A stretch of DNA of 64,000 nt from the NCBI GenBank assembly GCA_035764005.1, contig DASTZZ010000111.1, forward strand, positions 1 to 64,000, written 5' to 3'. The notes under the pieces were generated by a model. The model saw nothing but the letters and a program-made list of their open reading frames with translations. It was not told the origin of the DNA and made no database searches. Of this stretch, positions 17,427 to 46,696 are shown piece by piece (the stretch's first letter is position 1; each line of letters begins with the position of its first letter). A program made the translations under genes and the position numbers. The stretch is from Terriglobales bacterium. GTDB lineage: Bacteria > Acidobacteriota > Terriglobia > Terriglobales > Acidobacteriaceae.

Positions 17427-18182
17427 TCACGACCTGCCTGCGCAGTTCCACAATGGGGCTCGCGGTGCAATCAGACGATAGATGTGCGCACGAGAAGAAC
17501 GATTGCTGACGACGAGGTCCCCGCAATGCTCGCTCGGCATAGTGATGGCCGGATCCTTCAATAACATGATCCGCAGCCGGGGCCTAAACCTCTCAAATCG
17601 TGCGCAAATCTCTGACACTTGAGCGACATTGCTCCCAAGATCAATGGCAAGCAGGTCGTGAGCATGCCTTTCCAGGATCTGCTCCGCTTCCTCGGGGCGG
17701 CGTGTCCAGGTTGTAACGAAGCCGAGTTCATACCAGTCCATGAAAGTGAAGCGCGGAGGTCCCGATTTCAGCACCAGCACAAACTTTTTCGCCGAACCGG
17801 AAATGTGTTCGACGCGTTTTCCAAGATCGCCGGCGCCATCTATCTCCGAGTGTGAAGGACCGATCAACTTGATCAAGGATGTGGTCGAAAGCGGTTTGTG
17901 AATCACTGTGAAGTTCGCACAAGATTTTGGTGAAGACACATCGCCCGTCATCAGAAAGATCTTTGTTGTGGGCAAGAAGTCTGAAATCGTCACGCAGAAG
18001 TCTCTTCCGTTCATTCCGCTGAGATGAAGATCGCAAATTACCACTTCGGGAACATATCCTTCGAGCAGAGCGAAGGCCTCAGCAGCCGAACATGCGGATC
18101 GCACCCGGTATCCGGAACGCTCAAGGCAGAGTTGCAGCACCTCACGAACCGACGATTCATCATCTACGATCAAAATGTCCAT
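17427..18182 (-). CDS. Response-regulator protein with second receiver-like half, no output domain
   Basis: A 251-residue protein. The first 115 residues are a receiver domain with acidic pair VDDE, phospho-acceptor Asp (VVICDLHLSGMNG), Thr in LMTGD and Lys in IHKPL. The second half (about 130-235) has the alternation of a receiver (KFVLVLKSG, HDLLAIDLGSN, LRIMLLKDP) but lacks a normal active site. No DNA-binding, GGDEF or enzymatic output domain is visible. It may act as a phosphate sink or a protein-protein switch. It is separated from the two-component system at 19.0-21.2 kb only by the PepSY-type gene, on the same strand. Confidence 0.78.
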   Translation of the reverse strand: MDILIVDDESSVREVLQLCLERSGYRVRSACSAAEAFALLEGYVPEVVICDLHLSGMNGRDFCVTISDFLPTTKIFLMTGDVSSPKSCANFTVIHKPLSTTSLIKLIGPSHSEIDGAGDLGKRVEHISGSAKKFVLVLKSGPPRFTFMDWYELGFVTTWTRRPEEAEQILERHAHDLLAIDLGSNVAQVSEICARFERFRPRLRIMLLKDPAITMPSEHCGDLVVSNRSSRAHIYRLIAPRAPLWNCAGRS

Positions 18183-18999: not shown

Positions 19000-20481
19000 C
19001 TAAGAACTGGCCAATGGCACATCAATTTTTGATATAGAGGACTCCACTTTCGTTGACGACCCTGCAGCCAATGTAGGTACCTGAACGATGATCCGTGTCC
19101 CCATTCCAATCTTGCTCTCGGCGTAGATGGATCCCTTGTACGCTTGCACGATCGACTTAGCGATAGCGAGTCCCAGGCCAAATCCGCCTGTGGCGCGGGA
19201 ACGCGACGGGTCTCCGCGACGGAAGCGCTCGAAGATGTGCGTGAGCTCCGGTTCGGGGATACCAATGCCGCTGTCCGAAACGGAAACGGTCGCGGTGTCC
19301 TTGTCGGACTCAAGCACGACGATCACCTTCGATCCAGGTGCGCTGTATTTAACAGCATTTTCAAGCAAATTCAGCCAGACCAATTCAAGGTCACCTGCAT
19401 CGGCGCGCATGAAGACCATTTCTGACGATAGAAAGTCGATCTGGACATCGCGCTCAGCGGCGAAGCTGGCAAGGCGGGCAATTGCCATTTCGCAGGTCAA
19501 GGCAATATCGACAACCTCGAGCTCTCGGTGGATTCCGTCCGCTGCCCACTGTTCTACGCGAGCCAAACGGAGCATGCGGTTGAGAAGCTGTTCGAGGCGG
19601 TCACTATCTTCGCTGATTTGTTCCAGACCTTCTCTGTACTCCTGCGGATCGCGGGGACGATTCATGACCGACTGGAGCGTGGACTTCAAAATGGCCAGCG
19701 ACGTCTTGAGTTCATGAGCGGCATCGCCAAGAAATTCGCGCTGTTGAGTGAAAGCGCGCTGCAGGCCCGCAAGCACCGCTTCCATGGCGCCAATCAAAGG
19801 TTCGAGCTCTACTGCTGCTTTGGCTTCTTCCGTCGGCTTGAATTCCCAATTCTGAACGGAGATTTTCTTCGCCTGTTCGGCCAGATCATTCAACGGGACC
19901 AGCGTACGGCGAATATTGAAGATTGCGAGCAGAATCGTTGGCAGTACCAGGATCGCACTGCTAATGCCGATCGCCACAGCCAGGGCGGTGATACGTTGCC
20001 GGATGTCCATCGTCGGAGCGGCGTAGATAACCGTCAGTCTCGGAAGCGGCTGGGGCTCTCCTGGCTCTGTGTCCAAAATGGGAACATTCCGCAATATGAT
20101 TGCGCGATAAGGCTCTCCCTGATCCTCGAAGTTCCAGTACCGAGCGTCGGACGGAATCTGCTCCATAAATCCTGGCGGATAATTGTTCGAGTGCTGCTCG
20201 AAGTCTCCATGATCACTTCGCACCAGATACATGTCCTTATGAGTATGGTGGGAGGATGGAGGAATCTTGCTGCTGTCAAACAATAGTCCGGGCACGTGGT
20301 CATCCCGGTAATAGACCAGCGCCGCAACGCTCAGCGCGCGACCTTCGAGATTCACGTCAAAAGCGGAGCGCAGATGATATCTGGCATACCAACTTGCAAC
20401 CGCGACCAGAGCCAACGCGAGCAACACTTGCGATAGCACAACCGCGCCGACCAGACGCTTTTTAAGCGAGAAGCGCTTCAT
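19000..20481 (-). CDS. Sensor histidine kinase (QseC/PmrB type)
   Basis: A 493-residue inner-membrane kinase. Membrane helix 1 is about residues 11-30. The periplasmic sensor domain (about 31-165) has a His-rich stretch SSHHTHKD. Helix 2 is about 168-190, then comes a HAMP-like linker. The dimerisation domain has phospho-acceptor His in AAHELKTSLAI, followed by N-box LLENAVKYS, G1 DSGIGIP and G2 GGFGLGLAIAKS. The residue after the conserved Thr of the H-box is Ser instead of Pro. Its ATG overlaps the stop of the regulator gene by 4 bp (ATGA), so the pair is one transcript with regulator first. The His-rich sensor could see metal or acid, which is only a suggestion. Confidence 0.93.
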   Translation of the reverse strand: MKRFSLKKRLVGAVVLSQVLLALALVAVASWYARYHLRSAFDVNLEGRALSVAALVYYRDDHVPGLLFDSSKIPPSSHHTHKDMYLVRSDHGDFEQHSNNYPPGFMEQIPSDARYWNFEDQGEPYRAIILRNVPILDTEPGEPQPLPRLTVIYAAPTMDIRQRITALAVAIGISSAILVLPTILLAIFNIRRTLVPLNDLAEQAKKISVQNWEFKPTEEAKAAVELEPLIGAMEAVLAGLQRAFTQQREFLGDAAHELKTSLAILKSTLQSVMNRPRDPQEYREGLEQISEDSDRLEQLLNRMLRLARVEQWAADGIHRELEVVDIALTCEMAIARLASFAAERDVQIDFLSSEMVFMRADAGDLELVWLNLLENAVKYSAPGSKVIVVLESDKDTATVSVSDSGIGIPEPELTHIFERFRRGDPSRSRATGGFGLGLAIAKSIVQAYKGSIYAESKIGMGTRIIVQVPTLAAGSSTKVESSISKIDVPLASS

Positions 20482-21179
20482 TTGCGAACCTTTGCTCTAC
20501 CCGTGCGCTCATCGTGCAGGCTGTATCCTTGCCCACGTAAAGTGTGGATGAGCTTAACTTCACTCATTCCGTCGATCTTGCGGCGCAGGGCGGCGATGTA
20601 AACCTCGATCACGTTGCTGAATTTCTCCCAATTGTAGTCGTATAAGTGTTCGAGTAGCTCCGTCTTTGAAACGATAGCTCCGCGCTTATACGCAAGGTAT
20701 TCGAGAACCCGGTACTCCATCGGCGTCAAGGTGATAGGCTCACCTCCGCGAAAAACCCGGCGTGCTGTGCTGTTCAGCTCCAGATCGTCAATCTGAATGA
20801 CTGTCGAGTGTTCGCCCAGGCCACGGCGGATGAGTGCCTTGGCTCGAGCCACGAATTCGCCTAGATCGAAAGGCTTGGTAATGTAATCGTCGGCTCCGGC
20901 GTTCAGCAACGCGATCACCGACTCTTTCTCATCTTTCGCAGTCACGACAAGCACCGGAGTCTTGGCTCCATTTTTCCGAAACTTTCGCAGCAGCTCCAGG
21001 CCGTTCAGCTTCGGCAGCATCAAATCGAGCACGATGAGATCGTAAGGATTCGACTCAGCCAGGAACAGCCCTTCCTCGCCATCGAATGCCATATCGACGG
21101 CAGAAGAAGCATTCTCCTTCAGAATGCGAGCCACATTCTGTGCCAGCCGCTGCTCATCCTCGATCACCAGGACACGCAT
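20478..21179 (-). CDS. OmpR-family response regulator (QseB/PmrA type)
   Basis: A 233-residue regulator. The receiver has VIEDE, phospho-acceptor Asp51 (LIVLDLMLP), Thr in VVTAKD and Lys in ITKPFD. The winged-helix DNA-binding domain contains LTPMEYRVLEYLA and the recognition-helix region EHLYDYNWEKFSNVIEVYIAALRR split as EHLYDYNWEKF then SNVIEVYIAALRR, which resembles QseB and PmrA. That subfamily binds CTTAA-type direct repeats with 5-6 bp spacers. Five such elements of exactly that form occur in this island (18981, 24625, 30291, 36300, 45234), making this regulator the obvious candidate to bind them. No such box is visible before its own start. Confidence 0.93.
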   Translation of the reverse strand: MRVLVIEDEQRLAQNVARILKENASSAVDMAFDGEEGLFLAESNPYDLIVLDLMLPKLNGLELLRKFRKNGAKTPVLVVTAKDEKESVIALLNAGADDYITKPFDLGEFVARAKALIRRGLGEHSTVIQIDDLELNSTARRVFRGGEPITLTPMEYRVLEYLAYKRGAIVSKTELLEHLYDYNWEKFSNVIEVYIAALRRKIDGMSEVKLIHTLRGQGYSLHDERTGRAKVRK

Positions 21180-21266: not shown

Positions 21267-22985
21267 TCATTGCAACGGTTCAATCTTTGCGAGCTTTCCG
21301 CGGTGCACCTCAGAAACCCAAATTGTTACCGGATTCGTCGAGTTGTCCGCGTCGATTCTGCGCAGATTTGCGCCGAGCGTAGGCAACAGGTAATACGTGA
21401 ACTCTCCGGTTGACGGATTCAGGCGATAAACGTAGTCGGTTGACATCCCGTCGGTCCAAACATCGCCATTGCGATCCAGTACTGTGGGATAACATCCCGA
21501 CCACGGCACCGGCGGTGTCCACTCTTTCATCTGGTTGGTCCGTGTATCAAACATGCCTATCTTGCTGGCATAGTTTTCACCGAACCAGTATCGATCCTGC
21601 GAATCCATGAAAGTGCGCCGTGGCCCCGAGTCGGGCGTGGGCGTAGGGAATAGAGTTACGTTCCCAGTGTAAACATCCACGCGACCGATATTGCCTCCGG
21701 CGATGTCGGCGAAATATCCATTTCCTTTGGAATCAGTCCCAATGCCATAGGTTCGATGCTCATGGGCGTTGTGAAAATCAGCCACAATGCCAGTGGCTCC
21801 TTTGTAAGAGGGGAACGAGTTGTAGCCGTCGATATGTCCAGTAGCGGTATTCAATTTGTACATTCTGCGGTTTTCGCTGTCGGAAAACCAAACGATATCG
21901 TCGGGCGCCCCGAGAGCAACGTGAGCGCAGCTGCTTCTTTCGTTGTTGTCCTTCGGGTCTACCGTCCAGCTTTTAAAGGTCTCAGACTTCGGATCGAAAA
22001 CGGTCAACGTACATCCCTGTTTGAATCGCGGCAGCCACGCTTTGCCGGTCTGATCCAGTTTGATCGTTAGCAAACCACCAGAATCTTCCGGCCTCAAAAT
22101 CGGCAGCTTCCATTCGTGCGTTTGGCCTGAAGCGGGATCTAGAACTCCGAAAATTGGCTTTTGAAAATCGTTGTACCAAACCTTGCCATCATGGGCTACC
22201 GCAGCGTCATGAGGGTAGCTGTTCGTGCGCGGCAGGTCGTATTCGGTAACGATCACGCGAGCGTTCTTGCCGGATGGACGCGCAAACGCATGCAACTCAA
22301 ATGGCCATTTGTCGCGACCGCTCAGGTTAATACTTGCTAAATACTTGCCGAACTCGACGGCATCCGCTGGACCCTTTTTGGGAGCAAATCTGTTTGGAAT
22401 TGGGGACTCCTGCGTACTTGGAGGGAGCCATCCCTGCATACGCTTCAGAACGGCAGGCCATTCAGCTGCGGTGTAGTGGCTGTGCACAATCGGCTGCAGC
22501 GTGTGGCACGATTCGCAACGGTACAGCTCGTTCTTCTGCTCTTTCGTTCCCGGCATACTCTCGAGCCACTCTGCGCTAGTAAGCTGCGAAGCCAGGTCCG
22601 ATGTTGGAGCAAGGACGATGTTGGTCTGCTCTTGCTGGGGTTTGACCTCCACCTCGCTGGGACTCTGCAGGTCGTATCCCGCTGCCCGGATTGACAGCTT
22701 GTACCGGCCCGGCTCCAACCTGCCTGCGGGGAAAACATACTTCCCATTTTTGTCGCTAACCACCGTCACCGTAATGGGACTATCCAGTCGGCGCGCACCG
22801 ACTAGCACTCCGGACATATTTCCCTCTTGTTGGGAAGAGACCTGCCCAGAAAGCGCGGCGCTATTTTGACTACGGTGGGAAGAGCAGGAAATTCCGACGC
22901 AGCAGACTACTAACAATGCAGCCCAAGTAAAGAATAAGACGGCATCGCTCTCGGGCAGTTTGTCAGAAAAAATGCGAGTAGCCAC
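21267..22985 (-). CDS. Lipoprotein with haem-c motif and Vgb-like beta-propeller
   Basis: An exported lipoprotein of about 572 residues with unusual composition. The lipobox is VGISC (Cys about 34). A carboxypeptidase-regulatory-like beta-sandwich (about 45-125) is followed by a single CxxCH motif (CESCH near 158-161) in a short helical segment. A propeller related to streptogramin lyase (Vgb) fills about 225-570, with repeats such as HDAAVAHDGKVWYNDF and RTFMDSQDRYWFGENYASK. GTG 22985 is preferred because AGGAGG stands 5 nt upstream; TTG 22988 is closer. It follows the MmgE/PrpD gene by 47 bp on the same strand. A periplasmic electron-transfer or lyase role is inferred. Confidence 0.82.
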   Translation of the reverse strand: MATRIFSDKLPESDAVLFFTWAALLVVCCVGISCSSHRSQNSAALSGQVSSQQEGNMSGVLVGARRLDSPITVTVVSDKNGKYVFPAGRLEPGRYKLSIRAAGYDLQSPSEVEVKPQQEQTNIVLAPTSDLASQLTSAEWLESMPGTKEQKNELYRCESCHTLQPIVHSHYTAAEWPAVLKRMQGWLPPSTQESPIPNRFAPKKGPADAVEFGKYLASINLSGRDKWPFELHAFARPSGKNARVIVTEYDLPRTNSYPHDAAVAHDGKVWYNDFQKPIFGVLDPASGQTHEWKLPILRPEDSGGLLTIKLDQTGKAWLPRFKQGCTLTVFDPKSETFKSWTVDPKDNNERSSCAHVALGAPDDIVWFSDSENRRMYKLNTATGHIDGYNSFPSYKGATGIVADFHNAHEHRTYGIGTDSKGNGYFADIAGGNIGRVDVYTGNVTLFPTPTPDSGPRRTFMDSQDRYWFGENYASKIGMFDTRTNQMKEWTPPVPWSGCYPTVLDRNGDVWTDGMSTDYVYRLNPSTGEFTYYLLPTLGANLRRIDADNSTNPVTIWVSEVHRGKLAKIEPLQ

Positions 22986-23032
22986 CAAATCCTCCTAATA
23001 GACTGCAAATCAAAGTCTCACCGACGCGCCCC

Positions 23033-24574
23033 TCAACTGCGCTGCAGCAGTGGGCGAAGCGTGCGTATATCTTTGTTGTCCTCGATGGCAAAGATCGCGT
23101 GAATCAGTCTCTCAGTCTGGGTTCCACCCAGGAATGGCTTCATGAGATCTCTCGCCTTGGCGATAATCTCGTCCCGCGTCATAGGATTGTCCGGCGTGCC
23201 ACGCACGGCTTCCACGCGCTTTGTGAACGTGCGGCCATCAGTGGTTTGCACTTCGACGACGCTCACTCTGTGCGGGTATAGCTTTTCTAAAGCTTCATCG
23301 GGAACCAATACGACTTTCTGCCGCTCACGCAGCACCTCGGGATCTTTCATGCGCTCTTTATCGTGTGCCGCCTGGAAGGTCGCAGTCTGGTCGATCAGCA
23401 TGATCGCGATCATGTGCTGCATGCTGATGTCTGGCATTTCGCGATTGTTGACCGTCTTGGCTTCACTGGTGGCGACATGAACGATCACCTTCTTGATGTG
23501 ATCCTTATCGAGCGAATGCTGCTGCATGATTTCCTGCAACGCATCGAGCGGCGCCTGAATGGGAGAGCCGACCGTCCACTTCTTGATGCTGGTGCGCGTG
23601 ACCTCGTAACGCGTGCCGAGCTGATCGATGAGCTTCTCCGGATCGGCATTGGGAGCAAAGGCCGCAAGAAAGTTATCTGGGCCGGAGAACACATCGTTCA
23701 CTCCGGTAGCTCCAAGTTGAATCAGCAGAGTTGAAGTAAGTCCATTACGCGCAGGCATGCCGCCGAACACCAGGGACTTCTCCACATGTTCGGTATCGCG
23801 CTGCCAGGAAGCGATTCCAGATGCCTGCTGCGCGGCGTAACTCAAGATCCAGCGCATTTGCTGGGCATTCAGACCTGCAGCAGATGCAGCTGCAGCCGAT
23901 GCTCCGAACGTGTTCGAGATGCTGTGTGCGCTATGGTGCGTCTGCATTTGAAACGGAAGACCGCCCAGCGTGAGCAGCACCCTGGGTCCTACGTCATATC
24001 CGAGCGTCACCGCTCGCAGGAAACGCGTTCCATCAATTCCAAACTGTTCACCCGCGGCAAGCGTGGCGGGCACGATTGCGCAGCCAGGATGGGAGTGCGA
24101 CGGCGCATGCGAATCGTCGGTCTCATCGGAATGAGCCAGCATGCCATTGCTGATCGCCGCCTCCAACGGCCCGCAGAGCAGCTTGGAGCCAACGATGGTG
24201 CAGGTCTTGTCTCCCGGATGAGCCTCGGCAAACTTTAACGCGATTCGCGCCGGAGGCAGATTAACTCCGGAGACCATCGCGGCGATGGTGTCAACGATGT
24301 GGTGCTTCGCCTTCTCGACGACTTCTTCCGGCAGTTGCCGCGAACCGGCGGCGCTCATGTATTCGCTGAGCGTCGCAATGATCGTGTCCGAGCCGGGAGA
24401 ATTCGCTTTTGTGTCCGCTGGCCCCTCTTGCGCCGTCGCCACTACGCGATGCGGAGCCATAGCTCCGAGTGCGAGACAACTGCTGTACTTGAGTACCGTC
24501 CGACGGCTCACGCCTTCTTCATTAACAGTCGCGACGTTCGGTGCAATTGCTTTTCTAAATGAGAACAAGGGCAC
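23033..24574 (-). CDS. Tat-exported MmgE/PrpD family protein (copy 1)
   Basis: A 513-residue member of the MmgE/PrpD family, which includes 2-methylcitrate dehydratase, cis-aconitate decarboxylase and iminodisuccinate epimerase. Family hallmarks are HHIVDTIAAMVSGV, the SDETDDSHAPSHSHPG region and CTIVGS near the N-terminal domain. Unlike the usual cytosolic members it begins with a twin-arginine signal (VSRRTVLKYSSCLALGAMA), so the enzyme should be exported folded. A PmrA/QseB-type box stands 51 bp upstream. It heads a probable unit with the haem-c/propeller lipoprotein. A second Tat-exported member lies at 37471. The substrate is not known; a di- or tricarboxylate is likely from the family. 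Confidence 0.88.
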   Translation of the reverse strand: MPLFSFRKAIAPNVATVNEEGVSRRTVLKYSSCLALGAMAPHRVVATAQEGPADTKANSPGSDTIIATLSEYMSAAGSRQLPEEVVEKAKHHIVDTIAAMVSGVNLPPARIALKFAEAHPGDKTCTIVGSKLLCGPLEAAISNGMLAHSDETDDSHAPSHSHPGCAIVPATLAAGEQFGIDGTRFLRAVTLGYDVGPRVLLTLGGLPFQMQTHHSAHSISNTFGASAAAASAAGLNAQQMRWILSYAAQQASGIASWQRDTEHVEKSLVFGGMPARNGLTSTLLIQLGATGVNDVFSGPDNFLAAFAPNADPEKLIDQLGTRYEVTRTSIKKWTVGSPIQAPLDALQEIMQQHSLDKDHIKKVIVHVATSEAKTVNNREMPDISMQHMIAIMLIDQTATFQAAHDKERMKDPEVLRERQKVVLVPDEALEKLYPHRVSVVEVQTTDGRTFTKRVEAVRGTPDNPMTRDEIIAKARDLMKPFLGGTQTERLIHAIFAIEDNKDIRTLRPLLQRS

Positions 24575-24763: not shown

Positions 24764-26281
24764 CTAAAACCCCGGCAAAGTCCTCGTCTTCTCTATCTCT
24801 ACCGCCTGAAGGGCAGCAGGATTCAATCCCAACAGCTTCAGGATGGTTGGAGCGATCTGCGTTGTTTGGACTCGTGTGTGGATCTCCTCCGCTGACAATC
24901 CAGGATTCGCCACCAGCAGGGGCACATTCAGATCCTCCTCGTTGAAGCCACCATGTTCCGCGATGGTGCCATTGGTCGGCTTGGCATAGATCACGCCGAA
25001 GTCGGGTAACACCACGATGTCAGGAGAGCGGGAATCCTGAAGTGGATCGCGGAACAAGAGCTTCAGACTCTCACCAGAAAGGATTCTACGAATGTGCGCC
25101 TCTTTACTGTGTGCATTGAGGGCAGTTACTACATCCGCCGTCTTACTCTGGTCCTTCAACCAAATCATGGAGATGTCATCACCAGTGATTTCAGCCGCGA
25201 GTCCTTTTTGTACTCCGTCAACGATGCCGGGGATGATACTCTCGTCCACAATTTCCTTCTTTGAAACATCCATCGGCGACTGCCCGTGTTTTGCGGTGAG
25301 AACAATAGCAGTGGATGACAGTAGGCCACGGCTATCCAATTCCTTGATAATTTTTCCGATCGAGTTATCCGTATACTCTATCGCGCTTTGCAGCGCCGGG
25401 CTGAATGTGCGGCCATCATCGGTATATCCCATTCCCGCCTTGAGCTTCTCCCCAACGGTGAAGGCCTGGAATGTCATCCCGAAAATTGCAGGCACAGGAG
25501 CATCGTGGGTCCCGGTGTGATCTTTACCATCGATTTCGTTCAGGATAGCTTTGAGCCTGAGATCGTCGAAAGCCTCGATTTTTTCTAAGCTCTTGGATGA
25601 GGCATTGTGATGCAGTTCGGGAGTGTAAAGATCGTCCACTCCATGCCCAGAAGGACCGTTCACGATTTCGTAAGCGGGCTGCTTGTCGCACCAGGCCGTC
25701 CTCATTCCCGCGGCCTTAATGACCTCAAAAATTGTATTCACGCGCAACAGATCGTGAGGATAAACAGGTGAGCACCCTTTGCTACTATCCTTTGGCAGCT
25801 TATCTGGATTGACGCCACCTCCACCCTCGATGCCATCCGGATCAATGTCTATAGTTTCATCCAGCGCGACTTCAGTTCCCTTCGAAGCACATTTGGAATC
25901 TGGCGGTGAAAGAGAGCGATCGTAGCTGATCTCGTAAAAAACGCCATCAGAGTAAGGCGAACCTCCAGTTGTTATTGCTAGTATCCCTGGGAATGAATCA
26001 GATGGTCTCGATGTAGACGCGCTCGTATACGTAAATCCCATGTTCTTTAACTTTGCGAGCGTCGACTGAGGGTTAGCGCGTACATAATTCTCAAGGTCGA
26101 CAGCATGCATGCCATCGATCCCGAGCAGCAAAACTCTTTTTACCTTTAAATTCGCGGATCCCGCAGCACTCTTTTTCGAGGCTTTGTCCTTCGCCGAGGC
26201 GAATGATCCAGCCACAAGAAACGAAAACATGACGAAAAGGACTGCGGCTTTGTTGTAAGAAAACAAACGTGAACTAATCAA
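24764..26281 (-). CDS. Exported alkaline-phosphatase-superfamily phosphodiesterase
   Basis: A protein of about 505 residues of the type I phosphodiesterase/nucleotide pyrophosphatase family. Metal-ligand strand LLLGIDGMHAVD, nucleophile region SRPSDSFPG, AKHGQS and AEHGG motifs mark the two-metal active site. A signal peptide (KAAVLFVMFSFLVAGSFASA) sends it to the periplasm or surface. I place the start at TTG 26281, with AAGGAG 6 nt upstream. The longer frame to 26329 would run into the terminator at 26322-26355 and lacks a better site. The gene is flanked by hairpins and so is probably monocistronic. The substrate is unknown. Confidence 0.87.
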   Translation of the reverse strand: MISSRLFSYNKAAVLFVMFSFLVAGSFASAKDKASKKSAAGSANLKVKRVLLLGIDGMHAVDLENYVRANPQSTLAKLKNMGFTYTSASTSRPSDSFPGILAITTGGSPYSDGVFYEISYDRSLSPPDSKCASKGTEVALDETIDIDPDGIEGGGGVNPDKLPKDSSKGCSPVYPHDLLRVNTIFEVIKAAGMRTAWCDKQPAYEIVNGPSGHGVDDLYTPELHHNASSKSLEKIEAFDDLRLKAILNEIDGKDHTGTHDAPVPAIFGMTFQAFTVGEKLKAGMGYTDDGRTFSPALQSAIEYTDNSIGKIIKELDSRGLLSSTAIVLTAKHGQSPMDVSKKEIVDESIIPGIVDGVQKGLAAEITGDDISMIWLKDQSKTADVVTALNAHSKEAHIRRILSGESLKLLFRDPLQDSRSPDIVVLPDFGVIYAKPTNGTIAEHGGFNEEDLNVPLLVANPGLSAEEIHTRVQTTQIAPTILKLLGLNPAALQAVEIEKTRTLPGF

Positions 26282-26321
26282 CGCGCTCTCCTTGTGCTTG
26301 AAGTAAGGAACAGAAGAAAAA

Positions 26322-26355
26322 GCAGTCACGAAGGTTGGTTAGCTTTCGTGACTGC
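26322..26355. terminator. Bidirectional rho-independent terminator
   Basis: GCAGTCACGAA (26322-26332) pairs perfectly with TTCGTGACTGC (26345-26355). The plus strand continues with CCTTTTTTCTT and the minus strand with TTTTTCTTCTG, so it can end transcription both ways. On the minus strand it ends the TonB-receptor gene whose stop is at 26389. Confidence 0.88.
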
Positions 26356-26388: not shown

Positions 26389-29300
26389 TTACCAAATTAA
26401 CTTTAAGGCAAGCTGAATTTGGCGTTCCGGGGACGCAGTAGAATCTATCAAGCCGGCACTCCCAACAGGGTTGCCGCTTTGATCGAACAAAGTATTGTTG
26501 TCCACTGGGGCAGAGAAATTAGCGTGGTTGAGAATGTTAAAGACCTCTACCCTGAATTGCGCGTTGAACTGCTCTGAAATGCGCGGAATGCGATTGTTCT
26601 TGAAAAGCGAAAAATCCAAATTCGCTAGTCCGGGACCAACGAGGATGTTTCTGCCCGCATTGCCTCGCAAATTCAAGCACACTGGATCACTCGGTAGGGC
26701 CGTCGCCCCAGAGCCACCCTTGCAGTTTGCCTGGTAGAAGGCAAGATTAGGAGCAGTCGGCATCGCGAAGCAGTTGGTCTTGATGTACTGAACAGGGTTT
26801 CCAGGATTTACGAGTGAGCTGCAGCCTGGAGTGTTAAGCCGATTAGGTACATCGTATGCGTGGTCCGACCCTTGTCCCAGCGGGTCTCCATCGACCGCAA
26901 TGCTAAACGGAACTCCCGACGTGGCACGGAAGATTCCGCCCAATTCCCATCCACGCGCCGCCCATGCCATCGCTCCGCCTGCAGCGGGTGAGGGTAGCGT
27001 CCAAGTGTAGCTGGCGACCAGGTTATGCGAGACGTTTAGATCCGACAGCCCACGGTTCAACTTCATGTCGAACCACATCAGCCCGGGTATCGAATTGTTG
27101 AACGTATCGCCGGCGACGCCGGAAGTTCCCGTATCGATGTTCCGACTAAAGGTGTATGCGACCTGAGCCTGGAAGCCATGCTTCATCAGCTTCGATAGCT
27201 GGGTTTCAAGAGAGTCATAGTAGGAGTGCCCATCGTAAAACAAACCACGAATGACTCCCGCATTCGGATTAACCTTGACTCCGCCGCTCACAGGCCACAG
27301 ATATCCTTGGGGAGTCGCGGTCGGCAATACCATGTTGATGTCTTCAGATCGGAACGGCTGATGAATACCTCTCTGTCCCGCGTACGCCACAGTAGCTACC
27401 CATGTGGACATAAACTGCTGCTGAAGATTCAGGTTGTACTGCATCACATAGTTGCGCGGTGGATTCGAAGGTGAATAATTTTGTCGCAACGTCGACTTGT
27501 TCGCGGCAATTAACGGGAAAGCTCCAGTGGGATACGTTCCCTGGGGCAACGAGGAAACTTTTCCTTCCGTGAAGAAAGGAGCGGTAAACACATACTCGAA
27601 GTTGAATTGGTACGGTAACGGCAAAACATCAAAAATACCGTAGCCTCCCCGCAACGCTGTCTTGCCATTGCCCAGCACATCCCAAGCGAAACCAACTCTT
27701 GGTTCAAAATCTTTCGCGGTTGGATTGTCAAGAAAGAATGGCTCGCCAAGGTGAGGCTGAGGATCGGAAATGTTGCGCAAAATAGAGAGCTTTCCATTGT
27801 TCTCCGTCGGAAGCGTGAGTAGCTCGTAGCGCAAGCCCAGGTTGAGAGTCAAATTCTGGCGTATGTGCCAATCGTCCTGACCGTAGCCTCCAATTAACGT
27901 CTGACGGATACTCCGCCCGGTTACAGTAGAAGGAATCGCACCCTTAAAGGTTGTTGGCTTGTTTGTCAGGAAGTTCGCTAATGATCCAAAGCTAAAGACA
28001 CCGTTGTTATCGGTTTTAGCAGTTACGTTGTCCTGAATTCGCTCGACTGCAACTCCGAACTTAAGCGAGTGCTTGCCCTTAGTCACAAGCGCGTCGTCGT
28101 ACCCTTGGATAGAGTTATAATGAAAATTATAGTTTGAAGGCGCGCCCAATCCTCCTGTGAACTCTGTCACGCCAGATACAGCCACATCCGGGGCGTTACG
28201 GGTCGGAATCGCTCCGAATGATGCATCCTTTGCTGCGGGATTGATCGCGACATTGGTGGCTCCCACATTGGACGGAGTTCGTGCGAAGCCGAATCTGACG
28301 GAATTCAAGAATTGTGAGCTGAAGGTGTGCGTCTCCTCGGCAGTGAAAATCTTTCTTCCCACAATAAAACTTTGCAATTTGGTGTTGAATTCATCCGGGA
28401 TGGTGAGATTCGTATTGTCATAAACAAAGCTTCCGTGGAGGGCATCCTTACTGCTGAGGTTGTCGTCGAGACGAGTGGTAAAAAAGTTTTCTATATTCAG
28501 GCGCTGAATCGGAACCGTCAGTGTTCCCGTATCGCCTCCCGAGAGCAAGGTCCCGTTTGGCAGGGGATAAAACGCGTTCATGAACTTAGCGATAGCGGGA
28601 TCCACGGTCACGGTTCCCGTTGACAGTTGGCCATTGCGCGCGGCCTGGGAAGGGACTTTATCCAATTCAGTGCCTCCCTTCGATTCGCGTAAACCTTCGT
28701 AGTCGGCAAAGAAAAAGGCCTTGTCCTTCACCATGGGGCCACCTAAAGATCCACCAAACTGATTGCGATGGAAGGCAGGTCGCGTCACATCAAAGTAATT
28801 CTTTGCGTCTAAGGCATTGTTACGAAGAAACTCATAGGCATCACCGTGCAGTTTGTTCGTGCCTGACCGTGTAATTGCATTGATAACTCCGCCGGACGTG
28901 CGACCGTACTCCGCTGGATAGCTGCTGGTTAACACCGAGAATTCCTGAACGGCATCGACTCCGAGCGCTCCGCCTTCGACGTTACCTGGCCCGCCGTTGG
29001 AGTAGTCATTAACTGAAACCCCATCGAGTCGGTAATTGTTCTCCTGCGGACGACTTCCGGAGATGGCAATCTGATTTCCAAAGCCACGCTGTCCCCTGCC
29101 GCCATTAAATGGAGGCTGCTGCTGAGGATTGGCCACACCTGGCTGCAGCGTTGCCAAATCCGTCCATGACCTTCCATTGAGGGGCAGCTCGCGTACAGTC
29201 ACCGCGTCCACAACATCGCTGATTGATGAGGTAGCCAACTGTATGGATGGCGCGGCATCGGAGACCACGACCTCTTGCCGCACTTGGCCAACCTTCAAAG

Positions 29301-29646
29301 CCACGTTCACTATCTTTTGAGCCCCAACCGTGAGCGAAATGTTATTGAGCACCTGTTGCGAGAAGCCGCTGCTGGTGACGGTGACCTCGTAGTTGCCAGG
29401 CAACAGATTTGGAGCTGTGTATAGACCAGCGGCGTTAGTTGTAACCTTGGTCACAATTCCCGTGGCTATGTTGTGAATGGATACTTGTGCATTTGGTACT
29501 GTTGCTCCACTCTGATCGGTGACCGTTCCGACGAGCGTACCGCCGGTAAGCTGCGCATTCAATTGAACGCTCAAGAATAGAAAACTGAAGACGAATAAGA
29601 TCGTGCAAAGTCCTCGACCGACACTCACGCACAGTTGGTACTTCAT
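26389..29646 (-). CDS. Oar-like TonB-dependent receptor
   Basis: A 1085-residue outer-membrane receptor with a signal peptide (LCTILFVFSFLFLSVQLNAQ), a carboxypeptidase-regulatory-like domain (about 33-125: GTVTDQSGATVPNAQVS, ITNG-like turns), a plug (NGRSWTDLATLQPGV, SYPAEYGRTSGGVINAITRSG) and a large barrel ending RQIQLALKLIW. It is a close relative of the receptor at 14170 (shared stretches such as EFLRNNALDAKNYFD against EFLRNSALDARNYFD). The ATG at 29646 follows GGGGGCGAG. The ligand is unknown. The long upstream region holds a 9-bp inverted repeat and a PmrA/QseB-type box. Confidence 0.94.
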   Translation of the reverse strand: MKYQLCVSVGRGLCTILFVFSFLFLSVQLNAQLTGGTLVGTVTDQSGATVPNAQVSIHNIATGIVTKVTTNAAGLYTAPNLLPGNYEVTVTSSGFSQQVLNNISLTVGAQKIVNVALKVGQVRQEVVVSDAAPSIQLATSSISDVVDAVTVRELPLNGRSWTDLATLQPGVANPQQQPPFNGGRGQRGFGNQIAISGSRPQENNYRLDGVSVNDYSNGGPGNVEGGALGVDAVQEFSVLTSSYPAEYGRTSGGVINAITRSGTNKLHGDAYEFLRNNALDAKNYFDVTRPAFHRNQFGGSLGGPMVKDKAFFFADYEGLRESKGGTELDKVPSQAARNGQLSTGTVTVDPAIAKFMNAFYPLPNGTLLSGGDTGTLTVPIQRLNIENFFTTRLDDNLSSKDALHGSFVYDNTNLTIPDEFNTKLQSFIVGRKIFTAEETHTFSSQFLNSVRFGFARTPSNVGATNVAINPAAKDASFGAIPTRNAPDVAVSGVTEFTGGLGAPSNYNFHYNSIQGYDDALVTKGKHSLKFGVAVERIQDNVTAKTDNNGVFSFGSLANFLTNKPTTFKGAIPSTVTGRSIRQTLIGGYGQDDWHIRQNLTLNLGLRYELLTLPTENNGKLSILRNISDPQPHLGEPFFLDNPTAKDFEPRVGFAWDVLGNGKTALRGGYGIFDVLPLPYQFNFEYVFTAPFFTEGKVSSLPQGTYPTGAFPLIAANKSTLRQNYSPSNPPRNYVMQYNLNLQQQFMSTWVATVAYAGQRGIHQPFRSEDINMVLPTATPQGYLWPVSGGVKVNPNAGVIRGLFYDGHSYYDSLETQLSKLMKHGFQAQVAYTFSRNIDTGTSGVAGDTFNNSIPGLMWFDMKLNRGLSDLNVSHNLVASYTWTLPSPAAGGAMAWAARGWELGGIFRATSGVPFSIAVDGDPLGQGSDHAYDVPNRLNTPGCSSLVNPGNPVQYIKTNCFAMPTAPNLAFYQANCKGGSGATALPSDPVCLNLRGNAGRNILVGPGLANLDFSLFKNNRIPRISEQFNAQFRVEVFNILNHANFSAPVDNNTLFDQSGNPVGSAGLIDSTASPERQIQLALKLIW

Positions 29647-36346: not shown

Positions 36347-37429
36347 TCAATTCTTTTTCGCGCCTACACCTACCTGAATCTGTGCGGCGATAGCCTCTCC
36401 TAAGTCGCTGGTACGCGCATTTCCTCCGATGTCGGGAGTCCGCACCTCGCCGCTTGCCAGTACATCGACAATGGCTTTTTCAATCGCGTCAGCCGCGGCG
36501 GATTGTCCCAAATGACTAAGCATCATCGCCCCTGACCAAATCTGCGCCACAGGATTGGCAATCTGCTTGCCCGCAATGTCAGGAGCCGATCCGTGCACCG
36601 GTTCGAACATAGATGGAAACTCGTGTTCCGGATTGAGATTCGCGGACGGCGCGAGCCCCATTGAGCCAACGACACCAGCGCCCAGATCGGACAAAATATC
36701 GCCGAACAGGTTCGATGCAACCACAACATCAAACCAATCCGGGTGACGTACGAAATGTGCGCTCAAGATGTCCATCAGATACTGATCGGCTTTTACCTCT
36801 GGGTACTCCCGTGACATGGCAACAAAGCGCTCGTCCCAAAATGGCATACTGAACACAAGGCCATTTGACTTAGTGGCTGACGTAACGTGCTTTTTGCGCT
36901 TCTGCGCAAGTTCGAACGCGAAACGCATTACGCGGTCGCAGCCTCTGCGGGTAAACACGCTTTCCTGGATCACTATCTCTTCGGCTGTATTGCGAAACAT
37001 ACGGCCGCCCGCTTCAGAGTACTCGCCCTCGTTGTTTTCCCGGACAATGCAGAAATCGATCTGTCCTGGCAGAAAATCTTTCAGCGGGGTATCAATTCCG
37101 GGCAAGAGTCTGCAAGGCCGTAGATTCACGTATTGTTGAAAATTTCGTCGGATGGGAATCAACAAACCCCATAAGGAAATGTGATCGGGTACGCGGGGGC
37201 TGCCAATTGCGCCAAGATATATCGCGTCATAACGCTTCAATTGTTCGAAACCGTCAGCGGGCATCATCTGGCCGCTTTTGAGAAAACGGTCGCAGCTCCA
37301 ATCGAAGTGTTGCCAGGAGAAGCCTATGTCGAAGAGACGGCCGGCGGTTTCCAGGACGCGCATACCTTCAGGAACTACCTCCCGCCCAATACCGTCACCC
37401 TCAATTACCGCAATCTTGTACTGTTTCAA
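36347..37429 (-). CDS. D-malate/tartrate/isopropylmalate-type dehydrogenase
   Basis: A 360-residue cytosolic NAD-dependent beta-decarboxylating dehydrogenase. Landmarks are AVIEGDGIGREVVPEG, YVNLRPCRLLPG, the substrate/metal loop VRENNEGEYSEAGGR, ATKSNGL, VVASNLFGDILSDLGAG and FEPVHGSAPDIAGK. These match DmlA and TtuC (D-malate and tartrate dehydrogenases) more closely than LeuB. No leuC/leuD neighbours are present, which also argues for catabolism. It is 41 bp downstream of the second MmgE/PrpD gene on the same strand. It would oxidise a 2-hydroxy dicarboxylate to a keto acid and CO2. Confidence 0.9.
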   Translation of the reverse strand: MKQYKIAVIEGDGIGREVVPEGMRVLETAGRLFDIGFSWQHFDWSCDRFLKSGQMMPADGFEQLKRYDAIYLGAIGSPRVPDHISLWGLLIPIRRNFQQYVNLRPCRLLPGIDTPLKDFLPGQIDFCIVRENNEGEYSEAGGRMFRNTAEEIVIQESVFTRRGCDRVMRFAFELAQKRKKHVTSATKSNGLVFSMPFWDERFVAMSREYPEVKADQYLMDILSAHFVRHPDWFDVVVASNLFGDILSDLGAGVVGSMGLAPSANLNPEHEFPSMFEPVHGSAPDIAGKQIANPVAQIWSGAMMLSHLGQSAAADAIEKAIVDVLASGEVRTPDIGGNARTSDLGEAIAAQIQVGVGAKKN

Positions 37430-37440
37430 GGATGCCCCTC

Positions 37441-37457
37441 ATTAAGTCAAAATGAAG
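37441..37457. promoter_or_regulatory. Degenerate PmrA/QseB-type box 7
   Basis: ATTAAG-tcaaa-ATGAAG, immediately upstream of the dehydrogenase start (37429). One half-site deviates, and the position is close for an activator. It is kept because other degenerate copies show the same TGAAG variant. Confidence 0.4.
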
Positions 37458-37470
37458 TAGTCAAATGAAG

Positions 37471-38985
37471 CTAGCTGCTACATAAATCTGCAAGGCGGCG
37501 CATGTCTGGCTGTGATTCCAGTGTGCGCACCAGTTCGACAATTTGCTTAGCCTTTGATTGAGGCCAGTGCGCGAACTCCGCGCAACCGTAGAATTTCTCC
37601 GCGACTTCCCTATAAGTCATCGGATTTGCCGGGCTCCCCTTAGCAAAGTCGATTCGCCCACTAATGACGCGTCCATCTTTGAGATGGATCTTAATCAGCG
37701 TAGTCATTTTGTCGAAGCCTGCTGCTTCGGCCTGTGGATCTACATAGAAGCGGATTCGGCGGATCATCGCCTGCACATCAGGTCGATTGACCACCGCGTC
37801 TGTAAACTGCGGCAGTCCGGCCTTTCCTTCGAGGAGCAGGATTGCGACACAAAATTCCATACTGAATTTCGCCTGGAGCGCATTCTTTGGATCGTGGTGA
37901 ATCAGTGCGTTGGGCAGGTTGTGGTTGGTACCAACTTCGACCTGTTCCACGTCCGCGGCATTGATGTGTTCCGTGCGGATCAGGTGCAACATCTCAGTCA
38001 TAGCCGGATGAGTAAGTGAACCGGATGGAAACGGCTTGATAGAAATGCCGGGCGATGCAAACGTCCAAGGCTTTCCCAGCTTGTCCATGATTGCGCTGGG
38101 ATCGTAGGTGCCCCCAAACGCATGAAAGAAGCCTCGAGGTGCCTCGAGGATGCTATCAGCGCTGGTCCAACCCAAATCGGTTAATTCGGCAGAAAAGACG
38201 CCGATTTCTGCAGCATGGCCAGCATGGAATGGCTTCATCATCGTGCCGAAGTTCTCACGTAGACCGCTGGCTTGACTCGCGGCGATCCCAAACGCGCGCT
38301 CAATGTTGCTAGGATCGAAGCCGCGCAACTTTGCGCAAGCGGCGATGCTGCCAAATACTCCGCAAGTCCCGGTCGAGTGAAACCCATCTTCGTAGTGACG
38401 CGGGGCGATCGCTTCGGCGATCTTGGTTTCTACCTCGACACCAAGATGATAGGCGAGCATCAAATCTCGGCCGCTCTTATTCCCGATTTGCGCGATCGCA
38501 AATGCCGCAGGGAGTACCGGCACCGTAGGATGCGTGAGCAGGCCGTAAACCCGGTCCTTGGCCGCCGATAGTTGCGTGTCGTCAAAGTCCTCGACGTGAA
38601 TGGCTACTCCATTCACAAAGGCGGCAAACCTTGGAGGGAGCTTGTTCGCTTTGCCCATCACGGTCGCAGCGCTGTTGCCGAATTCTAGCGACTGCATGTA
38701 GCGGTGCAAAATGTCGGCGGTCTGCAGCATCGAACCGGCAAGCGCAAGGCCGATACCGTCGAGTAAGGACTTCTTTCCCAGATCAATAACTTCGGAAGGG
38801 ATATCCGCGAGTTGCGTACGGAATACAAAATCAGCTACATACCTGGTTAGACCAGTGACTTGCGGAAATGGCGGCGGACAAGGTGAGGTTGTGGACTCCT
38901 CAGCTGATCCAGTCACCGCATTGGCGCATAGTGAAAGTCCCGCTCCGGCGTTGAGCGTAGTCCGCACAAAAGTCCGTCTGTTCAT
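37471..38985 (-). CDS. Tat-exported MmgE/PrpD family protein (copy 2)
   Basis: A 504-residue MmgE/PrpD protein. It begins MNRRTFVRTTLNAGAGLSLCANAV, a twin-arginine signal, so it too should be exported. Family features include KKSLLDGIGLALAGS, HVEDFDD, LTHPTVPVLPAAFAIA and FHSTGTCGVFGSIAA. It is only distantly similar to copy 1 (23033), so this is not a recent duplication. It is co-directional with, and close to, the dehydrogenase gene, which suggests successive steps on a carboxylate, though one would be periplasmic and the other cytosolic. Reaction not known. Confidence 0.88.
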   Translation of the reverse strand: MNRRTFVRTTLNAGAGLSLCANAVTGSAEESTTSPCPPPFPQVTGLTRYVADFVFRTQLADIPSEVIDLGKKSLLDGIGLALAGSMLQTADILHRYMQSLEFGNSAATVMGKANKLPPRFAAFVNGVAIHVEDFDDTQLSAAKDRVYGLLTHPTVPVLPAAFAIAQIGNKSGRDLMLAYHLGVEVETKIAEAIAPRHYEDGFHSTGTCGVFGSIAACAKLRGFDPSNIERAFGIAASQASGLRENFGTMMKPFHAGHAAEIGVFSAELTDLGWTSADSILEAPRGFFHAFGGTYDPSAIMDKLGKPWTFASPGISIKPFPSGSLTHPAMTEMLHLIRTEHINAADVEQVEVGTNHNLPNALIHHDPKNALQAKFSMEFCVAILLLEGKAGLPQFTDAVVNRPDVQAMIRRIRFYVDPQAEAAGFDKMTTLIKIHLKDGRVISGRIDFAKGSPANPMTYREVAEKFYGCAEFAHWPQSKAKQIVELVRTLESQPDMRRLADLCSS

Positions 38986-39287: not shown

Positions 39288-40298
39288 CTACTCGACTGTT
39301 TCATACACCCGCACTTGCGCAGATTCGTTCGCATGATGAGGAACGGCCACATAGTATCGGTGCAATTCAGGAATCAGAATCGCAGTCTTGGCGCGAAAGG
39401 CTGTAGGAACTTTGCCAATCTGCTGATAATGATCGGCATCCTGCTGCTGAAAAACATCGACGAATTCACTTCCTGCGAAGTAAATCCGCTTTTGCGCGGC
39501 GTCGTACACCATGTCATCCGTCATCGAGGCTGCGGGCAAGTTGGCTACAACTTTACCCGAATCAGTGTCGAGAACGATGAACTTCCCCGGCTCGCGAGTG
39601 CCGACAAATAATCTATGGTCCACCTCGTCGAGAGCCATGCTGGTGGGCTTTTTGGCAACATCGGCAATCGACCAAGTGGCCATCAAGGCGTGCGTTTTGC
39701 GGTCGTAGACCTGCACCTCAGCTTTGCCGCGTATGTTCACAAGCAGCCGCGGGCTCGACCTCTCCAATCTCACCGCCTCCACATCGTCGCTGTTGATGTC
39801 GATGTCTCCGACCTGTTTTGCCGACGTGGTATCCACAATGGCAATGTGAGAATCTGGCAAGTGAGCGTCTTTCCCGGTCTCGACGATATACAAATACTTT
39901 GTCTCTGGGTCGTAGGTGCTCGAATCCGCTCCTTCTTTTACCTTGATCGTGCCTACCGGCTGATAGGACTCGGCATTGTATATCTTCACTTCTCCTAAAT
40001 CGCCGTCTATTACGAAGAGCTTGTTCAAGTCCGACCTGTAGACCATCGAATGTGGGGCCTTCAGTCCATCAATGGTATGAATTAACTTATTCGTATTTAG
40101 ATCAAATACCAGTACCTTCTCGTTTTCCTCGGCGGTAGAGAAGAGACGATGATCTTTCAAGTCCACCGCGAAATGGTCGAAATCACCGTCGTGCAACTGT
40201 GGGAGCGGGATGGTGTGCACCAACTTGAGGGGACTCTTCTTGCCCGGCAGAGATATCAACGATGCTGAAAGTAAGAGTGCAAATATAGCTGTCTTCAT
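39288..40298 (-). CDS. Exported YncE-like (YVTN) beta-propeller protein
   Basis: A 336-residue exported propeller. A short signal (MKTAIFALLLSASLISLPG) precedes about seven blades with recurring patterns such as VFDLNTNKLIHTIDGLKAPHSMV, VKIYNAESYQPVGTIKVK and IVDTTSAKQVGDIDIN. Proteins of this type are ligand or protein-binding scaffolds without a known catalytic site. It diverges from the MFS gene at 40526 across a degenerate box. Two similar propellers occur nearby (42059 and 44146). Confidence 0.87.
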   Translation of the reverse strand: MKTAIFALLLSASLISLPGKKSPLKLVHTIPLPQLHDGDFDHFAVDLKDHRLFSTAEENEKVLVFDLNTNKLIHTIDGLKAPHSMVYRSDLNKLFVIDGDLGEVKIYNAESYQPVGTIKVKEGADSSTYDPETKYLYIVETGKDAHLPDSHIAIVDTTSAKQVGDIDINSDDVEAVRLERSSPRLLVNIRGKAEVQVYDRKTHALMATWSIADVAKKPTSMALDEVDHRLFVGTREPGKFIVLDTDSGKVVANLPAASMTDDMVYDAAQKRIYFAGSEFVDVFQQQDADHYQQIGKVPTAFRAKTAILIPELHRYYVAVPHHANESAQVRVYETVE

Positions 40299-45394: not shown

Positions 45395-46696
45395 TTGAAT
45401 GACGAATCCAGGCATGGAGAATTCCGAGGCGAATTCAGGCACGAACATGCCGCAACTACACACGTGCTAACTCAAGATGCACACGCCCAGGCTGTAAAAG
45501 AAGACGTCTCAGGATGGCAGTTCGCGGTGTCTGCCGGCATCCTCGGCTGGGTGCTCGATGCCTTCGACTTCTTTCTGATCATCTTTCTCGTCGACACTCT
45601 GGCTAACAATTTTCACGTTGAAAAGAAAGAAATAGTCTTCACGATCACGCTCACGCTTGCCATGCGGCCCGTGGGCGCGCTGCTGTTTGGTTCTCTCGCC
45701 GACCGATATGGCCGCAAGCTCCCGCTGATCGCATGCGTCCTCTATTTTTCGACGATCACCGCCTGTAGCGCCTACGCGCCCGCTTTCTGGATCTTCGTCC
45801 TGCTGCGCGCATTGTACGGCGTGGGAATGGGAGGTTATTGGGGTATCGGCGCATCAATGGCGATGGAGAGCGCTCCGAGGCGGTGGCGCGGCGTGCTGTC
45901 GGGCCTGATGCAAAGCGGATATCCAATGGGATATTTGTTCGCGGCTGTCGCCATTGAAGCGGTGCTTCCGCGTGTGGGGTGGAAACCAACTTTTCTCTGC
46001 GGCTTCGTTCTCGCCTTAATAATCACCGCACTCACTATCAAAGCGCCAGAGCCCGCCGCATGGGTGCAGCATCGCGTTCAGACCTTCAAAGGCCTTTTTC
46101 GCGCTCTGCTGGAGCACAAAGGCAGCTTTGCCTATCTGCTCGTGGTCATGATGCTGATGAACAGCCTCTCTCACGGAACGCAGGATCTGTATCCCGACTT
46201 TCTGAAATCTGTACACCACTTATCGCAGACTACAGTTGCGCACTTGGCAATCCTGTACAACCTGGGAGCCATTAGTGCCGCCCTGATCATTGGTCACCTT
46301 TCAGAGCGCATCGGCCGTCGCTATAGTGTCATGATCGCTCTGGCCATCTGTGTTGTTGCCATTCCGGGATGGGCCTTTGGCGCAAGTGTCACGGCACTGA
46401 TGGTTGGTTCGATCGTTATGCAAGCCGGAGTTCAGGGAGCCTGGGGTGTGATCCCGGCGCACCTGGTCGAACTCTCGCCCGACTCGGTGCGAAGTCTGTT
46501 TCCCGGTCTGGTCTACCAGCTGGGAGTGCTGCTGGCATCGCCTGCGGTAAGCATCGAGTATCTGCTGCGTGATCGCCTTGGATATCGGGGCGCTCTCTGC
46601 GCCTTCGAAGGAGCAGTGATCCTGGCTCTGTTCTTCGCCTTTGCGTTTGGTAAGGAGCGGCGCGGAAAAGATTTTCGGGCTGCAACTCCGGTTTGA
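45395..46696 (+). CDS. MFS transporter, carboxylate/sialate:H+ symporter-like
   Basis: A 433-residue 12-helix transporter. The opening GWVLDAFDFFLIIFLVDTLA, the loop GSLADRYGRK and GGYWGIGASMAMESAPRRWRG are characteristic of the NanT/lactate-type SHS and related metabolite:H+ symporters. A hydrophilic His-rich leader of about 40 residues precedes helix 1, so an internal start is possible. The annotated TTG has GGAG about 11 nt upstream. It diverges from the propeller gene at 45186, with boxes 5 and 8 in the shared promoter region. The substrate is probably a monocarboxylate or sugar acid. Confidence 0.88.
   Translation: MNDESRHGEFRGEFRHEHAATTHVLTQDAHAQAVKEDVSGWQFAVSAGILGWVLDAFDFFLIIFLVDTLANNFHVEKKEIVFTITLTLAMRPVGALLFGSLADRYGRKLPLIACVLYFSTITACSAYAPAFWIFVLLRALYGVGMGGYWGIGASMAMESAPRRWRGVLSGLMQSGYPMGYLFAAVAIEAVLPRVGWKPTFLCGFVLALIITALTIKAPEPAAWVQHRVQTFKGLFRALLEHKGSFAYLLVVMMLMNSLSHGTQDLYPDFLKSVHHLSQTTVAHLAILYNLGAISAALIIGHLSERIGRRYSVMIALAICVVAIPGWAFGASVTALMVGSIVMQAGVQGAWGVIPAHLVELSPDSVRSLFPGLVYQLGVLLASPAVSIEYLLRDRLGYRGALCAFEGAVILALFFAFAFGKERRGKDFRAATPV

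Follow-up and report, generated by a model that had tools for sequence, protein, structure and literature searches.

A widespread family of exported proteins that apparently pairs a predicted haem c domain with a distinct branch of the Vgb propeller fold

Results

Organization of the locus

The window, a 64,000-nucleotide stretch of DNA from a Terriglobales bacterium, carries on its minus strand, in this order, genes for a TonB receptor, a phosphodiesterase, an MmgE/PrpD protein, the protein under study, a response regulator and a kinase. The gene under study lies in an open frame at 21267..22988; a GTG start at 22985 and a stop at 21267 yield 572 residues, and AGGAGG is visible by eye 5 nt ahead of the GTG. 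Its features and those of its surroundings are listed here, with residues numbered in the 572-residue protein.

19000..20481, minus strand: sensor histidine kinase (NCBIfam histidine-kinase models, none over cut-off; kept in the relatives L034, L035 and L054)
20478..21179, minus strand: response regulator (PF00072, PF00486; 77-78% identity in L034, L035 and L054)
21267..22985, minus strand: predicted exported cytochrome-propeller protein, 572 aa (open reading frame, Shine-Dalgarno sequence with GTG, full-length homologues)
21270..22268, minus strand: Vgb-fold seven-bladed propeller with a pocket, approximately residues 240-572 (Z 38-39 to Vgb structures; conservation)
22278..22595, minus strand: predicted haem domain, approximately residues 131-236 (helices in both models; PF09098 matches)
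22437..22439, minus strand: M183, candidate axial Met ligand (110/110 relatives)
22503..22517, minus strand: CESCH, putative haem-attachment motif, residues 157-161 (C157, C160 and H161 in 110/110)
22623..22853, minus strand: CarboxypepD_reg beta-sandwich, residues 45-121 (PF13620; 77/77 members)
22896..22952, minus strand: hydrophobic N-terminal helix, residues 12-30, a putative signal peptide or lipoprotein signal with a weak lipobox, GISC, after it (model helix, lipobox patterns)
23033..24574, minus strand: Tat-type MmgE/PrpD protein, 48 bp upstream (PF03972, E 1.4e-48; Tat-like motif SRRTVLK)
24764..26329, minus strand: type I phosphodiesterase / nucleotide pyrophosphatase-like protein with an N-terminal hydrophobic stretch (PF01663, E 1.3e-23; also in L034, L035 and L036)
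26389..29646, minus strand: Oar-like TonB-dependent receptor (PF25183, E 2.8e-173)
36347..37429, minus strand: tartrate dehydrogenase of the wider cluster (TIGR02089, 540.9 bits against a cut-off of 470.4)
37471..38985, minus strand: second MmgE/PrpD homologue, Tat-like N terminus MNRRTFV (PF03972)
45395..46696, plus strand: SHS-type (sialate/carboxylate) MFS transporter (TIGR00891, 2.2e-94, below cut-off; 53% identity to the L034 protein)

The tartrate dehydrogenase gene adjoins that of the second Tat-like MmgE/PrpD protein (36347-38985), and an Iso_dh and MmgE/PrpD pair recurs in L036. Elsewhere in the window lie other propellers of the YncE type (39288-40298 and 44146-45186), a YVTN-type propeller (42253-43233, plus strand) whose similarity to models of hydrazine synthase beta and of PQQ-associated propellers falls far short of their cut-offs, and a 251-residue response regulator (17427-18182, minus strand) whose receiver domain is followed by a C-terminal part that matched no NCBIfam model.

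A shared domain architecture in a large family

Relatives were gathered by whole-protein BLAST in 61 genomes, the source genome included, and by searching a species-genome collection with a propeller peptide pattern, from which 80 of 177 relatives were kept. The 126 BLAST rows were reduced to 116 by a full-length filter and to 110 by removal of duplicates and short duplicate loci; these 110 full-length relatives include the query, and 6 partial or split rows stand outside the alignment. A further alignment, A2, combines 76 of the 85 listed relatives with the window protein.

In the window protein, Pfam recognized CarboxypepD_reg at residues 45-121 (E 9.6e-12) and Vgb_lyase (PF24684) at residues 409-568 (E 4.1e-22, over cut-off), and NCBIfam returned Vgb(A)/(B) models alone, far below cut-off. 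An AlphaFold model built with 77 sequences (mean pLDDT 91.5, pTM 0.89) consists, in order, of an N-terminal hydrophobic helix, the beta-sandwich, the helical haem domain and a full propeller. Pfam, the alignment and the model thus confirm the combination reported in the first-pass annotation, namely a beta-sandwich, a CESCH motif and a full Vgb-type propeller in one 572-residue protein. The same architecture recurs elsewhere: CarboxypepD_reg and Vgb_lyase are paired in all 77 members scanned (Pfam, E<=0.01), indicating a widespread family and not a singular fusion. We therefore rejected a one-off fusion or gene-model artefact, given these end domains and a haem motif present in 110/110 relatives. 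The annotation had also described the protein as fitting no standard family, which holds in so far as the family has no described function; its two end domains are both standard Pfam domains.

Most carriers are genomes from soil and groundwater, with the labels Acidobacteria, Alpha-, Beta- and Deltaproteobacteria, Rokubacteria and Gemmatimonadetes, and the nearest named record, L054 (60% identity), is labelled Candidatus Angelobacter. Paracraurococcus sp. LOR1-02 (L122) is an example of a carrier in culture. A phylum-wide search found a match at E<=1e-60 in at least 14 of 297 genomes, a lower bound because 4 candidates were scored per genome. The source genome has a single family copy. At least 22 full-length copies, every one with the haem motif, are encoded in genome G056; this expansion of paralogues (L037-L053) is unusual, and some of them stand in tandem (L041, L046, L051).

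The hydrophobic helix at residues 12-30 supports the export of the protein proposed earlier. Its designation as a lipoprotein is less well supported. The window sequence V-G-I-S-C satisfies a loose PROSITE-type lipobox pattern and fails the strict one, and among the 110 members a lipobox precedes the first domain in 4 by the strict pattern and in 9 by the loose one, some of them away from the end of the signal peptide. The strict pattern occurs in L034, L054 and L056, and the plausible lipoboxes lie in the closest clade. A lipoprotein assignment may fit that clade alone, and we reject it as a trait of the whole family.

An invariant CxxCH motif followed by a candidate axial methionine

We next consider the helical domain between the beta-sandwich and the propeller. 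C157, C160, H161 and M183 are invariant in the 110 full-length relatives, with CX2CH spacing in 107 and CX3CH in 3, and the methionine lies 22 residues past the histidine in 98 of them. All 6 partial or split rows likewise contain CX2-3CH and then a Met. CX3CH replaces CX2CH in four members (L038:3558-6029, L084:6081-8165, L040:4018-5814 and L100:15898-17565). The motif was not a selection criterion, since the relatives had been found through a propeller peptide or by whole-protein BLAST, and a protein of such composition would contain a CxxCH by chance with a probability of about 0.003. The positions between the two cysteines vary across the family, and the median identity of the haem domain to the query is 38%. 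The first-pass annotation had staked its haem reading on conservation of CxxCH and on the presence of an axial ligand, and the persistence of both the motif and M183 throughout the alignment favours it. Judged from this conservation, haem c is very likely to be attached at CESCH, and the family very likely carries haem c with His/Met ligation by H161 and M183.

Similarity searches point to a distant relative of this domain. PF09098, the haem domain of the quinohaemoprotein amine dehydrogenase alpha subunit, has matches at E<=0.1 in the haem domains of 8 of 77 members (best 1e-8), the window member not among them. A haem-domain profile matched 1jmx and 1jju weakly (E 0.05-0.07), with the family Met aligned to their R-M. 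At this level of comparison, the haem domain of the family shows a distant resemblance to the one in quinohaemoprotein amine dehydrogenase. Counting against a haem, Pfam gave no cytochrome match for the window member. The haem-domain model alone gave weak structural matches: Foldseek returned none at E<=0.001, and VIA placed cytochrome c551 at Z 2.5, which is chance level. Quinohaemoprotein amine dehydrogenase chains did not appear among the rows, an absence that excludes nothing. For cytochrome c assembly, the source genome has 3 PF01578 matches over cut-off.

The window protein has one CxxCH, and more than one is found in 2 of the 110 relatives, L050 and L098 having a second. Another paralogue, L038, has an extra N-terminal Cytochrome_CBB3 domain (Pfam, 1.5e-8). 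Zinc sites, too, can contain short CxxCH motifs, and the motif here could in principle form a metal site or a disulphide in a protein devoid of haem. The invariant Met at near-fixed spacing, the unconserved positions between the cysteines, export, the similarity to PF09098 and the extra cytochrome domains in paralogues all argue against such a site, and we regard it as extremely unlikely.

A Vgb fold in which the catalytic positions are replaced

The propeller adopts the complete fold of virginiamycin B lyase in the AlphaFold model. Residues 242-572 cover 295 of the 295 residues of Vgb chain 2z2o_D (Z 38.5, rmsd 2.0 Å), and the top solved structures are all Vgb lyases (2qc5, Z 39.2; 2z2o_D, 38.5; 2z2n, 38.1; rmsd 1.9-2.0 Å), after which the rows drop to Z of about 32. 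Identity to Vgb is 20-22%. The structural register is linear, with model residues 242-572 on chain residues 1-295, and agrees with the residue alignment.

Together with the Pfam Vgb_lyase match, this resemblance could mean that the protein is a Vgb-type lyase performing elimination chemistry with an accessory haem domain. The residues at the active site speak otherwise. We take His270, His228 and Glu268 to be the catalytic residues of Vgb, in that numbering. In the sequence alignment with 2z2n, H228, H270 and E268 fall opposite Y499 (Tyr in 110/110), R542 (Arg in 106/110) and N540; for Vgb Y18 the alignment gave no counterpart. The title of 2z2p describes a "catalytically inactive H270A", so replacement at the H270 position should abolish Vgb chemistry. 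PMC8916777 assigns the catalytic residues of Vgb to blades 6-7. Because these positions are replaced by Tyr, Arg and Asn, we rejected a Vgb-type lyase as the main reading and hold it to be highly improbable. The lyase function assigned by the first-pass annotation is not sustained, and the label should be dropped for this propeller branch.

The propeller has instead a pocket of its own, whose residues sit at blade positions matching the Vgb sites: across the 110 relatives, Y413 and Y499 are conserved in all, R457 in 107, R542 in 106, R456 in 103 and H259 in 101. We compared 8 propellers that lack the beta-sandwich. All six residues are present in L009, L011, L012 and L013, and L014 keeps all but H259; L010, with Y413 alone, L015 and L022 do not have the full set. 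The haem motif is absent from the standalone acidobacterial propellers L009, L011, L012 and L014, and L013 has a CxxCH of its own. Since propellers without the haem motif have the pocket in common with the family, its role needs neither haem nor fusion. On the aligned sequences, the propeller forms a separate branch within the Vgb fold, marked by a conserved pocket that differs from the Vgb site, and the wealth of Arg and Tyr in that pocket suggests an anionic ligand.

Could the propeller itself be a redox enzyme? Its pocket would then oxidise a carboxylate or hold an anionic cofactor, and the haem would serve as the electron outlet, as in quinohaemoproteins. The pocket is conserved more strongly than the fold should require (101-110 of 110), and every full-length member has the haem motif, both as such an enzyme would have it. 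Set against these points, standalone propellers that lack the haem motif have the same pocket, and no known cofactor motif was recognised in the propeller. PQQ is an unlikely candidate and was rejected, as pqqE is over cut-off in 1 of 11 carrier genomes and the source genome is not that one; the sub-threshold score for pqqE (TIGR02109) there covers PQQ synthesis, and PQQ might instead be taken up. We consider a redox-active propeller unlikely.

Gene company in the window and in relatives

The neighbours of the gene recur in its relatives. L034, L035 and L036 (63, 58 and 49% identical) have all the gene types of the window in rearranged order, plus an SHS-type MFS transporter, of which the window transporter at 45395..46696 is a homologue. 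L054 combines a response regulator, a kinase, the family gene and the transporter, and L056 the family gene and the transporter. That these genes stay together although their order changes speaks for a functional link among them.

In genomes G000, G003, G028 and G037, every one of the 6 MmgE/PrpD genes is found within 15 kb of a family gene. That the adjoining MmgE/PrpD protein of the window is exported, as noted earlier, is supported by its Tat-like motif, SRRTVLK; the adjoining or nearest MmgE/PrpD proteins in the window, L034 and L035 have S/T-RR Tat-like motifs, and that of L036 has MERRKFL. In the proteobacterial loci L069, L070 and L108, MmgE/PrpD genes without a Tat-like start point away from the family gene, at a distance of 111-321 bp.

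Further neighbours were counted in 100 loci, many of which end at contig ends. Two-component genes adjoin the family gene in the window, L054 and L035 and stand one gene away in L034, an arrangement that would be expected if the haem domain were a redox or gas sensor and the protein a binding protein that feeds the neighbouring system. Across the 100 loci, however, response regulators are found in 8 and histidine kinases in 7, while the haem motif is invariant. His/Met-ligated haem is, moreover, typical of electron transfer and not of gas sensing, and we judge a sensory role very unlikely.

Some distant members have a molybdenum hydroxylase gene close by: in 8 of the 100 loci (e.g. L042, L083 and L110) the two genes are no more than 1.2 kb apart. 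By chance about 0.4 such loci would be expected, given a density of at most 80 matches per 44 Mb in different carrier genomes; 3 of the 8 (L095, L100 and L107) are homologous and so not independent. In L083 a 2Fe-2S gene follows 12 bp downstream, and in L110 the hydroxylase gene is 10 bp upstream. The L095 hydroxylase has a weak Tat match. An apparent operon at L042:2-6068 contains, together with a family member, genes for a 2Fe-2S subunit, a molybdenum hydroxylase and an FAD subunit. In the window, a BLAST search with three MoCoBD proteins found no MoCoBD gene. There, no redox enzyme gene stands directly beside the family gene, and the MmgE/PrpD protein and the phosphodiesterase are non-redox, which counts against a redox role.

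Discussion

We think it probable that the protein joins a monohaem cytochrome c and a Vgb-fold propeller in one exported chain and acts as an electron-transfer component, or as an electron-accepting component of a dehydrogenase, in a catabolic pathway outside the inner membrane. The cytochrome c assembly system would attach the haem, with H161 and M183 as ligands. The pocket of the propeller, formed by two Tyr, three or four Arg and one His, may bind either a partner protein or an anionic ligand, namely a carboxylate, and electrons would pass to the haem and from there to the respiratory chain. The partner would differ between pathways; here it may be a route that runs through exported MmgE/PrpD proteins and handles a (hydroxy)carboxylic acid or an ester of such an acid. 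The TonB receptor, the phosphodiesterase, the Tat-type MmgE/PrpD proteins, the carboxylate-type MFS transporter and the tartrate dehydrogenase of the locus argue that the substrate is likely of this class. The best reading of the family is thus a role in the breakdown of carboxylates or aromatic compounds beyond the inner membrane.

A bolder proposal, and an improbable one on our assessment, is that the family constitutes a new class of haem-linked oxidoreductase with the Vgb propeller as its scaffold. The H259/Y413/R456-R457/Y499/R542 pocket would be an active site that, outside the inner membrane, oxidises carboxylates (or an aromatic acid) and delivers electrons straight to the fused His/Met haem. 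If so, soil Acidobacteria and Proteobacteria would have spread this protein into many pathways.

These assignments bear on how soil genomes are annotated. Genes of this family are likely labelled antibiotic lyases on account of the propeller, which scores over the Vgb_lyase cut-off here; the evidence for the family points to respiration-linked catabolism and not to an antibiotic lyase. A large family of uncultured Acidobacteria and Proteobacteria emerges, encoded beside molybdenum hydroxylases or MmgE/PrpD enzymes, and a locus with an exported MmgE/PrpD protein is now tied to a predicted redox protein. We found no description of a cytochrome/Vgb-propeller fusion in the open-licence papers searched. 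Each part is of a known kind; the fusion and the pocket are apparently undescribed.

Comparison with known systems

The protein shares with virginiamycin B lyase (2z2n, 2z2o and 2qc5; PF24684) a full-length seven-bladed propeller, and differs from it in the replacement of the catalytic His and Glu, in its other pocket, in two extra N-terminal domains and in being exported. For exported molybdenum hydroxylases of the isoquinoline, nicotinate or aldehyde oxidoreductase type, the known partners are plain mono- or multihaem cytochromes. Family members near MoCoBD genes (8 of 100 loci) resemble these cytochrome subunits in gene position, whereas the window gene has no adjacent hydroxylase. Quinohaemoproteins carry a PQQ propeller and a cytochrome c on a single exported chain. 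The present protein similarly appears to unite propeller and cytochrome c in one exported chain, but its propeller belongs to another family and pqqE is below cut-off in 10 of 11 genomes. CylK likewise joins a Vgb-like propeller, with the Vgb sites replaced, to a different domain (PMC8916777). Unlike the present family, CylK and BrtB have a calcium-binding N-terminal domain, alkylation chemistry and no haem. The haem domain of the quinohaemoprotein amine dehydrogenase alpha subunit (PF09098; 1jmx, 1jju) has, like that of the family, a CxxCH followed by an R-M motif; the window protein differs in having one haem motif in place of two and in joining it, on a single chain, to a Vgb-type propeller.
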